Assembly: GCA_021848365.1 (NCBI GenBank)
Contig: JAJZUS010000003.1
Location: forward strand, 1 to 64,000
Source of the DNA: Actinomycetes bacterium
GTDB taxonomy: Bacteria > Actinomycetota > Acidimicrobiia > Acidimicrobiales > RAAP-2
Direction: 5' to 3'
DNA: 64,000 nt
Numbering within the stretch: position 1 is the stretch's first letter; each line of letters begins with the position of its first letter. A model generated the notes under the pieces. It did not search any database, was not told where the DNA came from, and saw only the letters and a program-made list of their open reading frames with translations. This document shows, piece after piece, positions 39,441 through 43,546 of this stretch. A program made the translations under genes and the position numbers.

Positions 39441-40133
39441 ATGGACAGCCAGGACAGCACGCGCTCAGCGCTGGACTCGATCGACACCGTCGCGTTCAAG
39501 GTCGGCCTCAAGGGGTACAACGTCGAGGAGGTCGACGAGTTCCTCGAGCGACTCTCGACGGAGGCCCGGGCCCTCAAGGAGCAGTTGCACCAGCAGCGCC
39601 AGCAGTTGCGCCAGGCCGCCGAGAGAATCAGTCAGCTGGAGTCGGGACGGGTCGCCCCGCCGCCGGCCGCCCCGCCGGCCGCCCCGGTGGCCCCGGTGGC
39701 TCCGCCGCGCGCCCCGGTGAGTGGCGCGTCGGCCGAACAGGTCACCTCCATGATCGCGATGGCCCAGCAGTTCATCGAGCACGCCCAGCACGAGGCGGAG
39801 GAGAAGGCGCGGGAGCTCACGGTCGCCGCTCGCGAGCGCGCCTCGCAGATCGTCGCGGAGGCCCGGAGCCGAGCCGAGGACGAGGTGAATCGACTGAACG
39901 GTCTCAAGCAGCGCCTGAGCGAGGACGTCGAGAGCCTGACGCGTCAACTCGACGTTGAGCGGACGAGGTTGAGCGGCGCCCTCTCGGAGTTCCTGCGGTG
40001 GATCGACTCGAACCTGCGGGCGTCGGCGGCCCCGGAGGCTCCCCGCGACCCGCGTCCCGTGACGCCGCCACCGGCGCCGTCTCCCGCTCCGAACACGCTC
40101 GACTTCGAGCCTCCGGCCGCTGATCGCGCGTAG
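39441..40133 (+). CDS. divIVA: DivIVA/Wag31 polar growth protein
   Basis: DivIVA marks negatively curved membrane at poles and septa and directs polar cell-wall growth in actinobacteria. The 230-residue protein has the N-terminal lipid-binding domain (FKVGLKGYNVEEVDEFLERL), a first coiled coil, a Pro/Ala hinge (about residues 72-96), a second long coiled coil with many Glu/Arg (about 105-178) and a Pro-rich tail. It is shorter than mycobacterial Wag31 but similarly built. Confidence 0.94.
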   Translation: MDSQDSTRSALDSIDTVAFKVGLKGYNVEEVDEFLERLSTEARALKEQLHQQRQQLRQAAERISQLESGRVAPPPAAPPAAPVAPVAPPRAPVSGASAEQVTSMIAMAQQFIEHAQHEAEEKARELTVAARERASQIVAEARSRAEDEVNRLNGLKQRLSEDVESLTRQLDVERTRLSGALSEFLRWIDSNLRASAAPEAPRDPRPVTPPPAPSPAPNTLDFEPPAADRA

Positions 40134-40149
40134 CGAGGTCGCTGACTGC

Positions 40150-40155
40150 TAGGGT
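40150..40155 (+). promoter_or_regulatory. -10 box for H1-like/DksA fusion gene
   Basis: TAGGGT followed by a leader of about 34 nt with GGAG before ATG 40190. Confidence 0.4.
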
Positions 40156-40189
40156 CGGCGCGCACCATACGAGGTCGATTGGAGCGGTC

Positions 40190-41305
40190 ATGGTCGCTGG
40201 GGCGTCGCGCAGCACGAAGTCGTCGGTTAAGGCGGTCGCCGCCAAGGCGTCCGGAAAGGGCGGCTCACCAGCGGTGACGAAGGCCGGTTCGAAGAGTCCC
40301 GCGCGCACCGTCGGCGCCAAGACGAAGTCGCCGGCGAAGTCGCCGGCGAAGGCGGCCGCGAAGGCGGCCCCCGCGGCGAAGAAGGCCCCCGCGGCGAAGA
40401 AGGCGACTCCCGCCTCGCGCGAGGCGGCGGCCCGGGCCGCGGCGAAGGAGCGCGAGGCGAAGGCCAAGGCCACGGCGGCCGCGAAGGCCCTCCGCGAGCG
40501 CGAAGCCAAGGCCAAGGCCGCGGCGAAGGAGCGCGAGGCGAAGGCCAAGGCCGCGGCGAAGGAGCGCGAGGCGAAGGCCAAGGCCGCGGCGGCCGCGAAG
40601 GCCCTCCGCGAGCGCGAGGCGAAGGCCAAGGCTGCGGCGAAGGAGCGCGAGGCGAAGGCCAAGGCCGCGGCGGCCGCGAAGGCCCTCCGCGAGCGCGAGG
40701 CCAAGGCCAAGGCCGCGGCGAAGGAGCGCGAGATCGAGCGACGCGCGCGCGAACGGGCCGCCGCCGAGGCGAAGAAGCAGCGCGAGCTCGAGGCGAAGCG
40801 GCGCGCCGCGGAGGCGGAGCGTCAGCGCAAGTTGAAAGAGATCGAGCGTCGCAACCTCGAAGAGCAGCGTCGCCAGGAGCGCCGCGAGGCGGAGGAGCGC
40901 GCCCGCCAGGAGGAACTCGAGCGCAAGCGCAACTCCCGTCCCTACGCCGACGATCCCGAGTTCCTGTCGCTGCTACGCGATCGGCTGCTCGAGGAGCGGG
41001 CGAAGACCCTGCGCGAGATCCAGGTCCTCGAGGAGACGATCGACGAACTGCGTGAGGACCGCGAGCAGCCGGAGTACGACGAGGAGGACGGTAGCAGCGC
41101 GGGTCTCGACTTCGACCGTGACCAGTACCAGACGCTCGTCGACCAGACTCTGCGGCCGAAGATCTTCGACATCGACGTCGCCCTCGAGCGGGTGGCCGAC
41201 GGGAGTTACGGTCGCTGCGACTCGTGCTACGAGCCGATTCAGCGGGCGCGCCTGGAGTTCCAGGTCCCGGTCTTCCTGTGCCAGACGTGCCGCGAAGCCG
41301 GCTAG
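40190..41305 (+). CDS. histone H1-like Lys/Ala repeat tail fused to a DksA/TraR-type C4 zinc finger
   Basis: The 371-residue protein has three parts. Residues 1-75 are disordered, Lys/Ser/Pro/Ala-rich with KSPAK repeats like histone H1 tails. Residues 84-250 are a charged helical array built from REAKAKAAAKE-type units interrupted by KALRE, then an Arg/Glu coiled coil. Residues 255-371 carry a DksA/TraR-like helix hairpin and a zinc finger C343-x2-C346-x17-C364-x2-C367. The C-terminus would fit the RNA polymerase secondary channel in the DksA manner, while the tail should bind DNA or RNA nonspecifically; both are inference. A DksA-like gene before lspA is common in actinobacterial genomes. 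The DNA encoding the repeats is itself repetitive (40442-40732). Confidence 0.85.
   Translation: MVAGASRSTKSSVKAVAAKASGKGGSPAVTKAGSKSPARTVGAKTKSPAKSPAKAAAKAAPAAKKAPAAKKATPASREAAARAAAKEREAKAKATAAAKALREREAKAKAAAKEREAKAKAAAKEREAKAKAAAAAKALREREAKAKAAAKEREAKAKAAAAAKALREREAKAKAAAKEREIERRARERAAAEAKKQRELEAKRRAAEAERQRKLKEIERRNLEEQRRQERREAEERARQEELERKRNSRPYADDPEFLSLLRDRLLEERAKTLREIQVLEETIDELREDREQPEYDEEDGSSAGLDFDRDQYQTLVDQTLRPKIFDIDVALERVADGSYGRCDSCYEPIQRARLEFQVPVFLCQTCREAG
40442..40732 (+). repeat. in-frame coding tandem repeats within the fusion gene
   Basis: Near-identical units beginning GAGGCGAAGGCCAAGGCC recur in frame every 33 bp, with 48-bp variants that insert the KALRE-encoding CTCCGCGAG block. 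KALRE recurs at residues 99, 138 and 165, so the array varies in step length (39 and 27 codons). Such arrays expand and contract by slippage while keeping frame. Confidence 0.85.
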
Positions 41306-41754
41306 TCGGGCCCGCGGCTCTACCCGTGGCGACCATTGCGGTCGCCGTCGTCGCGCTCGACGCGTTGATCAAGGCGTGGGCGAGAACTCTCACCGCACCG
41401 CGGCACGTCGTGGGGCCACTGTGGTGGCGTCTGCAGTACAACGAGGGGGTCTCCTTCTCCTGGGCCTCCGGCGGGTCGACGTGGGTCACCGCGCTCACGA
41501 CCGTGGTGGCTCTCGCCGTCCTCGTGGTGGCTCTGCGGTCGCGCGGGGGAGCACCGGCCGCGGGCTTCGGCCTCCTGATCGGAGGCGGCCTCGCCAACTC
41601 CGTCGATCGGCTCACGGGAACCCCGCATCGTGTGACCGACTTCATCTCGGTGGGATCGTTCCCCGTCTTCAATCTGGCCGACGTGGCCGTGACGGTGGGC
41701 TTCGCCATCCTGTTCGTCGTCGTGGTGCGTGGCGAGCGACTGACGGTGCGATGA
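41287..41754 (+). CDS. lspA: lipoprotein signal peptidase LspA
   Basis: LspA cleaves prolipoprotein signal peptides after diacylation. The protein has four membrane segments, LDALIKAWA after the first, NSVDRL and FNLADVAV with the two catalytic aspartates, and the FSWASG region. GTG 41287 (155 residues) is chosen so that the first membrane segment is complete; GTG 41326 would cut it and GTG 41224 would add a long tail. The start overlaps the fusion gene by 19 nt, and its stop overlaps rluD by 4 nt. A substrate lipoprotein lies at 63525. Confidence 0.92.
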   Translation: MPRSRLVGPAALPVATIAVAVVALDALIKAWARTLTAPRHVVGPLWWRLQYNEGVSFSWASGGSTWVTALTTVVALAVLVVALRSRGGAPAAGFGLLIGGGLANSVDRLTGTPHRVTDFISVGSFPVFNLADVAVTVGFAILFVVVVRGERLTVR

Positions 41755-42710
41755 GCGACCCGGTGTCCCCCGACGTCCTCGATTTCGTCATCCCGACGGC
41801 GCTCGATGGGGTTCGCGTCGATCGGGCGGTCGCCCTGCTCACGGGACGGTCTCGGTCGGAGGTGGCGAACCTGGTGACACGGGAGCGCGTCGAGGTGAAC
41901 GGCCGACCGGCCCGTCGTGCCGCCGACGCCCTCCACACGGGTGATCGCGTGACGGTCACGCCGTTCGCCGAGCTGACCGACGAGGTGCACCCGGATCCCG
42001 ACGTGGTGGTGACGGTGGTCGCGGAGGCTCCGGACTACGTCGTCGTCGACAAGGCCGCGGGCGTCGTGGTCCACCCGGGCGCCGGGCAGCGTGAGGGGAC
42101 GCTCATCGCGGGCCTCCTCGCTCGCTATCCCGAGATCGTGGAACTCGGCGAGGAGGCCGGATCGGATCCCGGCCGACCGGGGGTGGTCCACCGCCTCGAC
42201 AAGGGAACGTCGGGTCTACTGGTCGTGGCGCGCACGGCGAGGGGGCGCGACAGCCTGGTGGGTCAGCTCAGTGCCCGCACGGTTCGGCGCGTCTACGTGG
42301 GGCTCGTCGAGGGCCACCTGGCCCACGAGCGCGGCGTCGTCGACGCCCCGATCGGTCGCTCGGCGAACGAGCCGACTCGGATGGCCGTGCGGGTCGACGG
42401 GCGCGAGGCGCGTACGCACTACGAGGCGATCGCGCGCCTCGACGAGCCCGCGACGACACTGGTACGGCTGCGGCTCGAGACCGGCCGTACGCACCAGATC
42501 CGGGTTCACATGGCCTCCATCGGCCATCCGGTCGTCAACGACACCCGTTACGGGCACCGACGTGACCGACGGCTCGCGGATGGTCGCTTCTTCCTCCACG
42601 CCGCGCACCTGGGCTTCGTCGACCCCGGTACGGGTGAGGACGTCTCGTGGACCTCCGACCTGCCGTCCGACCTCGCGGCCGTCCTCGGCGAGGCGGCTCA
42701 GGCGCTCTGA
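41751..42710 (+). CDS. rluD: RluD-family pseudouridine synthase
   Basis: The 319-residue enzyme joins an N-terminal S4 RNA-binding domain (RVDRAVALL..., EVNGRPARRAADAL) to a RluA-type catalytic domain with Asp150 in GVVHRLDKGTSG. It probably makes the pseudouridines of 23S helix 69. It is coupled to lspA by ATGA, an arrangement conserved in actinobacteria. The 3' end overlaps the convergent sigma factor gene by 13 nt. Confidence 0.92.
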   Translation: MSDPVSPDVLDFVIPTALDGVRVDRAVALLTGRSRSEVANLVTRERVEVNGRPARRAADALHTGDRVTVTPFAELTDEVHPDPDVVVTVVAEAPDYVVVDKAAGVVVHPGAGQREGTLIAGLLARYPEIVELGEEAGSDPGRPGVVHRLDKGTSGLLVVARTARGRDSLVGQLSARTVRRVYVGLVEGHLAHERGVVDAPIGRSANEPTRMAVRVDGREARTHYEAIARLDEPATTLVRLRLETGRTHQIRVHMASIGHPVVNDTRYGHRRDRRLADGRFFLHAAHLGFVDPGTGEDVSWTSDLPSDLAAVLGEAAQAL

Positions 42711-43546
42711 CGGGCTGCGATCACGCGGGAGTCACCGCGCAGGACGGCCAGCGCCTCCTCCTCCGCCCGCCGAACACGGCGGACTCCGATGTCCATCGCG
42801 GTCGCGGTGGCCTGCAGCGAGAGGGGAGCGGCGCCGTTCAGTCCGAAGCGGTGCGTGATCACCTCGCGCTGCAACTCCGTGAGCTGGTCGAGCGACTGGC
42901 GCAACTGCTCGTCCACCATCGACTGCTCGATGTCACCGACCCAGTCCGTCTGACTCGGGGCGACGAGATCGCCCAGCGTTGTGGCGGAATCGGACGTCGC
43001 CGGCTGGTCGAGACTCGCGGTGACCCCGGCCAGGCTGCGCAGGTCGTCACGTTCGGCCTTCGACAGGCCGGTCGCCTCGGTGAGCTCGTCGTCGGTCGGG
43101 GTACGACCGAAGATCGAGGTCAGCTCCGCCGTCGTCGCCTCGAGGCGCTGGAGTTGCTCTCCGACCTCAAGGGGGATTCGAATGGTGCGTCCGTGCTGCT
43201 GGACCGCGCGCTGGAGCGCCTGACGGATCCACCAGGTGGCGTAGGTGGAGAACTTGAACCCGCGCTCCCAGTCGAACTTCTCGACCGCTCTCAGGAGGCC
43301 AAAGGTCCCCTCCTGGACGAGGTCGATCATCTCGACGCCCCGGTCCTGGTAGCGACGGGCCCAGTGCAGCACGAGTCGGAGGTTCGCGGCGACCATCTGC
43401 TTCTTCGCCTCTTCGTCACCGGCCGAGACGCGCTTGGCCAACTCGACCTGCTCGTCGTAGTTGGGCATCGGGTAACGGTCCAGGTCGCGCATGAGGAGTC
43501 CGAGCATGTCGTTGGTGTTCACGGCGCTACGTCGATTCGTCGTCAT
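42698..43546 (-). CDS. group 2 RNA polymerase sigma factor (sigma-70 family) with altered region 4.2
   Basis: The 282-residue sigma factor lacks region 1.1 and begins with a short region 1.2 (DMLGLLMRDLDRYPMP). Region 2 is conventional: NLRLVLHWARRY, DLVQEGTFGLLRAVEKFDWERGFKFSTYATWWIRQAL, so a TANNNT -10 is expected. Region 3 is normal. In region 4.2 the helix that reads RERIRQIE in most homologues is here VRRVRRAE, replacing the residues that touch the -35 element. It starts at ATG 43546 after GAGGAGTGAG, and its 3' end overlaps rluD. Confidence 0.93.
   Translation of the reverse strand: MTTNRRSAVNTNDMLGLLMRDLDRYPMPNYDEQVELAKRVSAGDEEAKKQMVAANLRLVLHWARRYQDRGVEMIDLVQEGTFGLLRAVEKFDWERGFKFSTYATWWIRQALQRAVQQHGRTIRIPLEVGEQLQRLEATTAELTSIFGRTPTDDELTEATGLSKAERDDLRSLAGVTASLDQPATSDSATTLGDLVAPSQTDWVGDIEQSMVDEQLRQSLDQLTELQREVITHRFGLNGAAPLSLQATATAMDIGVRRVRRAEEEALAVLRGDSRVIAARQSA

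Follow-up and report, generated by a model that had tools for sequence, protein, structure and literature searches.

The fusion of a histone-like tail to a DksA-like domain is already known from Streptomyces DdbA (SCO2075), for which Aldridge 2013 is reportedly the primary paper. Few bacterial proteins are candidates for a direct coupling of chromosome packing to RNA polymerase, and those of the DdbA type are among them. DdbA is presented as a nucleoid-associated protein that S. coelicolor expresses in sporulation; it affects both the compaction of the chromosome and resistance to stress, and has been suggested to "modulate RNA polymerase activity combined with ppGpp" (PMC11942623). Actinobacterial HU of the HupS type is likewise described as using a low-complexity Lys/Ala tail to compact DNA (PMC3784963). 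A further precedent is the KER of CAF-1 (yeast Cac1), a DNA-binding single alpha-helix (SAH) of 90 residues and 128 Å that bears a basic stripe (PMC10335832).

The gene and its neighbours

The window, the stretch of 64,000 nucleotides analysed here, comes from an Acidimicrobiales MAG of about 2 Mb. The Lys/Ala-rich tail, the Ala/Lys/Arg/Glu repeat and the C-terminal DksA/TraR-type C4 domain that an earlier note had read from this DNA are all confirmed in one 371-aa ORF, which starts with an ATG preceded by a GGAG about 10 bases upstream. The gene, its immediate neighbours and the parts of the encoded protein are as follows.

39441..40133, forward strand: divIVA, upstream neighbour (Pfam DivIVA, E 6e-11)
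40190..41305, forward strand: whole gene, 371 aa, with H1-like tail, charged helix and DksA-like domain, probably of DdbA type (ORF, orthologues, synteny)
40190..40414, forward strand: residues 1-75, disordered Lys/Ala/Pro/Ser histone H1-like tail with KSPAK, net charge +17 (composition, AlphaFold2 pLDDT about 40)
40415..40738, forward strand: residues 76-183, Ala/Lys/Glu/Arg tandem repeat of variable length, predicted helix (TRF, SAH pattern)
40739..40933, forward strand: residues 184-248, 65-residue R/E/K helix of fixed length, net positive (motif offsets, identity, pLDDT >90)
40934..41302, forward strand: residues 249-371, DksA/TraR-like domain, helical hairpin 256-337 and C4 zinc finger (profiles, AlphaFold2, Foldseek)
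41216..41290, forward strand: zinc-finger cysteines C343, C346, C364 and C367 (sequence, alignment)
41326..41754, forward strand: lspA, signal peptidase II, downstream neighbour, start inferred (Pfam Peptidase_A8, E 2e-24; conserved neighbour)

The protein is laid out like DdbA, with a DksA/TraR-like C4 domain preceded by an H1-like Lys/Ala tail, and, as in Streptomyces-like genomes, its gene lies directly upstream of lspA-rluD. Taken jointly with the mechanism set out below, it is reasonably likely to be the Acidimicrobiales orthologue of the DdbA-type protein. The established view of DdbA is that a histone-like tail holds a DksA-like factor on DNA, and by analogy it is probably right here as well.

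Pfam matches within the window give the gene order yggS-sepF-yggT-divIVA-[gene]-lspA-rluD. lspA and rluD are the neighbours that stay constant over much of the phylum, whereas divIVA, whose adjacency is strong within the genus, is recognised beside the gene in only part of it. A special role near the division operon, suggested earlier, thus finds no support; this is simply the usual position of the gene on the chromosome. The same [gene]-lspA-rluD order and an H1-like tail were found at three loci of family f50 (L137-L139) in Streptomyces-like genomes of 7-10 Mb; SCO2074 is presumably lspA in S. coelicolor. These three homologues, presumed to be from Streptomyces, differ in having no Glu-rich SAH between tail and domain, where the window protein carries about 150 additional helical residues. 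No description of an inserted conserved helix in a DdbA-type protein was found in the literature searched.

Profile and protein searches of the order and the phylum placed DksA-like proteins nearly everywhere in the order. Among the Acidimicrobiales loci read, essentially all have an H1-tailed one beside lspA-rluD, as do other Actinomycetota. At lspA-rluD, 19 of the 20 other genera sampled from the family carry a KAPAKK-type tail without the Glu-rich helix, the sole exception being L173. Helix-tailed rows need three changes in an 81-row tree of the domain, in which the placement of L173 on a long branch is unsure, and well-supported branches force at least two. A distant family includes a 1.7-Mb genome (L119, G199:C13) whose zinc-less DksA-like domain bears its own helical A/K/E-rich tail, which appears to have arisen independently in this unrelated lineage. 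The sequence comparisons indicate that the long charged helix was gained in the genus of the window protein, between an ancestral tail and the DksA-like domain.

A chance or artefactual ORF was ruled out because the gene is conserved in dozens of species with a very low dN/dS over the last 188 residues. Repeated searches of the genus also recovered orthologues that share the tail architecture and the conserved gene order, few congeners being without a match. Overlapping antisense ORFs on the minus strand (e.g., 39904-40710 and 40227-42191) were regarded as GC-rich frame artefacts. A promoter scan found nothing, and no paralogous copies of the tail were found elsewhere in the genome. Just past rluD, on the opposite strand, lies a sigma-70 family factor with regions 1.2, 2, 3 and 4 (42698-43546, reverse strand).

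The genome encodes RelA/SpoT. Its HU is without a Lys-rich tail and Lsr2 was not detected in it; the window protein, in which such a tail is fused to a DksA-like domain rather than to HU as in the HupS type, may therefore supply much of the Lys-rich DNA-coating function in its host.

Three parts of the tail

The earlier note had described one regular array of 250 residues. A long charged array is indeed present, but it is not uniform: it falls into three parts, with residues 1-84 predicted to be disordered and only residues 94-247 predicted to be helical. The H1-like part and the helix part are different things with different evolutionary behaviour. Residues 1-75, with 15 Lys, 24 Ala, KSPAK motifs and a KAPAKK-like character, are the disordered, fast-evolving and ancestral part. 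Their resemblance to linker histone H1 is compositional only; the globular winged-helix domain of H1 gave no Pfam match, and the AlphaFold2 model consists of disorder, one helix and the DksA fold. Residues 76-183 are built from an EREAKAKAAAK 11-mer and a 16-mer, EREAKAKAAAAAKALR. The repeats are also present at the DNA level, with periods of 33, 81 and 114 bp at 94-97% match (TRF). The description of the tail as extreme and repetitive is correct.

AlphaFold2 predicts one helix over residues 94-247, which would span about 23 nm if continuous. On an alignment of six sequences only, confidence exceeds 90 from around residue 175 onward, across most of the DksA domain, and pLDDT is about 50-60 over residues 90-150 in the distal repeat; AlphaFold2 readily predicts helix for sequences rich in A, K, E and R. 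The pairing of Glu with Lys or Arg at i,i+4 over residues 76-248 scores 0.198, against 0.025 ± 0.032 in composition-matched shuffles (z 5.4). Patterning of this kind recurs in 36 orthologues (z 3.6-5.8); the automatic H1/helix boundary used there is crude, and that boundary was kept out of length claims. A dense salt-bridge pattern and the absence of a hydrophobic heptad are two of the marks of an SAH, and the window protein has both. The proposal of a single charged helix of at least 20 nm is thus supported in silico by the model (residues 94-247) and the salt-bridge pattern.

An orthologue was recovered in nearly every genome of the genus, and all the full-length ones carry the three tail parts. 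A tail absent or not Lys-rich in all orthologues would have spoken against the earlier proposal; the tail is Lys-rich in all full-length congeners. Among 57 distinct orthologues examined, a KARE-type motif lies 65 residues before the DksA domain in 40 of the 42 where it was recognised, an EIERR-type motif 32 residues before it in 42/42, and an ERREAEE-type motif 19 residues before it in 44/47. Residues 184-248 thus appear to be of fixed length in most species of the genus. The length N-terminal of this proximal helix ranges from 134 to 260 residues among the orthologues, some of these counts including untrimmed upstream frame. A uniform 250-residue ruler was rejected on account of this variable distal length. 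A precise molecular ruler built from the repeats is disfavoured, since the repeated part varies in length between species; a fixed length is confined to the 65 residues next to the DksA domain.

After 9 divergent or indel-bearing sequences had been removed from the 57, mean pairwise identity among the remaining 48 was 0.774 in the 65-residue helix, 0.707 in the DksA-like domain and 0.375 in everything N-terminal; low-complexity composition somewhat inflates chance identity, though not to 0.774. At the level of sequence, the helix is therefore better conserved in the genus than the DksA-like domain. The best named relative is L061, a MAG labelled Acidimicrobiaceae with a DksA-like domain 98% identical to that of the window protein. 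Against it, dN/dS is about 0.70 in the H1-like tail, whose composition is nonetheless kept; it falls to 0.11 over the repeat and reaches 0.020 for the proximal helix and 0.018 for the DksA domain. The repeat is 38 residues (114 bp, one DNA repeat period) shorter in L061, although in a MAG such a shortening could be a short-read assembly collapse. The same comparison gives a dS of 0.84 in the proximal helix (40739-40933) and 0.20 in the adjacent DksA domain (40934-41302), a contrast perhaps due to recombination or codon constraint.

Readings of the conserved helix

We favor, with moderate confidence, a DdbA-type nucleoid protein in which the SAH keeps DNA at a distance from a DksA-like RNA polymerase module and may itself take part in DNA binding. 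The disordered Lys/Ala/Pro tail would bind DNA without sequence preference, as extrapolated from the published Streptomyces work. The charged SAH of about 150 residues, inserted in this genus between the tail and the DksA-like domain, would then keep the DksA-like module some 20 nm from the DNA-bound tail. Its conserved 65-residue base would make specific contacts, for which DNA or RNA polymerase is the most likely partner, and the distal repeat would be a spacer in which variation in length, by gain and loss of whole units, is tolerated. The DksA-like domain would enter the RNA polymerase secondary channel or otherwise contact the enzyme, and nucleoid packing would be coupled to transcription. 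What the analysis shows is the anatomy, synteny, conservation and predicted fold, whereas binding of the protein to DNA and to RNA polymerase is inferred.

Residues 184-248 might instead be a DNA-binding SAH like the CAF-1 KER, with DNA lying along the basic face and the helix fixing how much DNA is held between the H1-like tail and the DksA-like module. Both are long K/E/R helices near other DNA-binding parts, net positive and with a basic stripe, possible in the window protein and observed in the KER (PMC10335832); homology is not claimed. By analogy with this precedent, a net charge of about +8.5 over the 65 residues, an 80-degree sector that is nearly acid-free in 48 orthologues (0.6% acid, 69% basic), the fixed length and the near-frozen sequence would all suit DNA binding. 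The stripe is, however, statistically borderline. An unscanned 100-degree test gives p 0.0002, but once sector and pitch are scanned p is 0.05 by column shuffles and 0.026 by block shuffles, and 0.14 for the window sequence alone; heptad patterns in SAHs also give stripes by themselves. We regard this reading as rather unlikely. Its fullest form, in which the helix, as an independent bacterial counterpart of the CAF-1 KER, would set how far nucleoid-bound DNA lies from an RNA polymerase-binding DksA-like module, is unlikely. Should the helix bind DNA on its own, bacteria would have a type of DNA-binding domain that has so far been described in CAF-1.

Conservation above that of the DksA domain also suggests a partner, and the proximal helix might serve contacts between proteins, as a coiled coil or as a rod that binds a partner, perhaps RNA polymerase or DivIVA, with DNA bound by the N-terminal tail alone. 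A weak Leu/Ile/Met stripe near a periodicity of 3.6 (p 0.057) and the strong divIVA adjacency within the genus point the same way. Against this, the 3.5 periodicity of a heptad is absent, with low power at that period and a best a/d occupancy of only 0.33, and it is lspA-rluD rather than divIVA that stays beside the gene across the phylum. A dimeric coiled coil could form in the native protein despite the missing heptad signal; the partner-binding role as a whole we consider doubtful. It seems quite improbable, finally, that the helix is a nearly neutral by-product with no new function, which arose when a disordered, A/K-rich tail in a GC-rich genome lost prolines and its repeats slipped. In favor of such an origin, the tail has low complexity and is driven by repeats, close relatives differ in repeat number, and the separate L119 lineage also acquired a helical A/K/E tail, but strong purifying selection on residues 184-248 (dN/dS about 0.02) and their fixed length across most of the genus argue against it. 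A neutral origin could apply at most to residues 76-183.

For the favored reading of a spaced DdbA-type protein, the genus offers a natural experiment. The two halves are parted by a conserved, probably rigid helix with a base of fixed length, and the geometry of coupling is thus testable via helix length.

The DksA-like domain and its zinc ligands

In the AlphaFold2 model the C-terminal domain forms a helical hairpin (256-291 and 304-337) followed by a CxxC-x(17)-CxxC zinc finger, features shared with E. coli DksA (1tjl) and P. aeruginosa DksA2 (4ijj). Foldseek matched the model to 4ijj (E 1.6e-4, target TM 0.75) and also to 1tjl, and a PDB profile search likewise matched the C-terminal DksA-like domain. 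The NCBIfam DksA_like profile gives 49.9 bits (E 3e-13), below the curated cut-off of 105, and Pfam zf-dskA_traR gives no match at 1e-3. Since it scores below the curated cut-offs of both collections, the domain is best described, on its sequence, as a divergent DksA/TraR subfamily and is not called DksA proper. Unlike DksA/TraR, the window protein has a 248-residue N-terminal extension and a longer tip loop, and the DxxDxA tip motif appears not to be cleanly kept. Profile alignment sets E298, G301 and L306 at the positions of D71, D74 and A76, with the tip three residues longer; the local string D297-E-E-D300-G-S302 resembles DxxDxA but lies one residue off that alignment.

Many homologues at the order level have lost zinc ligands yet retain the H1-like tail, so that the DksA-like half may have another function. 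Frequent loss of these ligands in relatives with a DNA-binding-type tail also calls into question how far this family is DksA-like. Loci that have lost cysteines with the Lys-rich tail kept include L072, L081-L086, L107, L110-L118, L142 and L144 (e.g., CEVSG...RVEYK), and the cysteine-losing Acidimicrobiales homologues that were checked also sit at the lspA-rluD position. At L106 (G000:C3:325800-331900), a second, short DksA/TraR-type zinc-finger ORF lies in the same genome at about 328821-328946 of the contig; it is a 101-aa frame without a Lys-rich tail.
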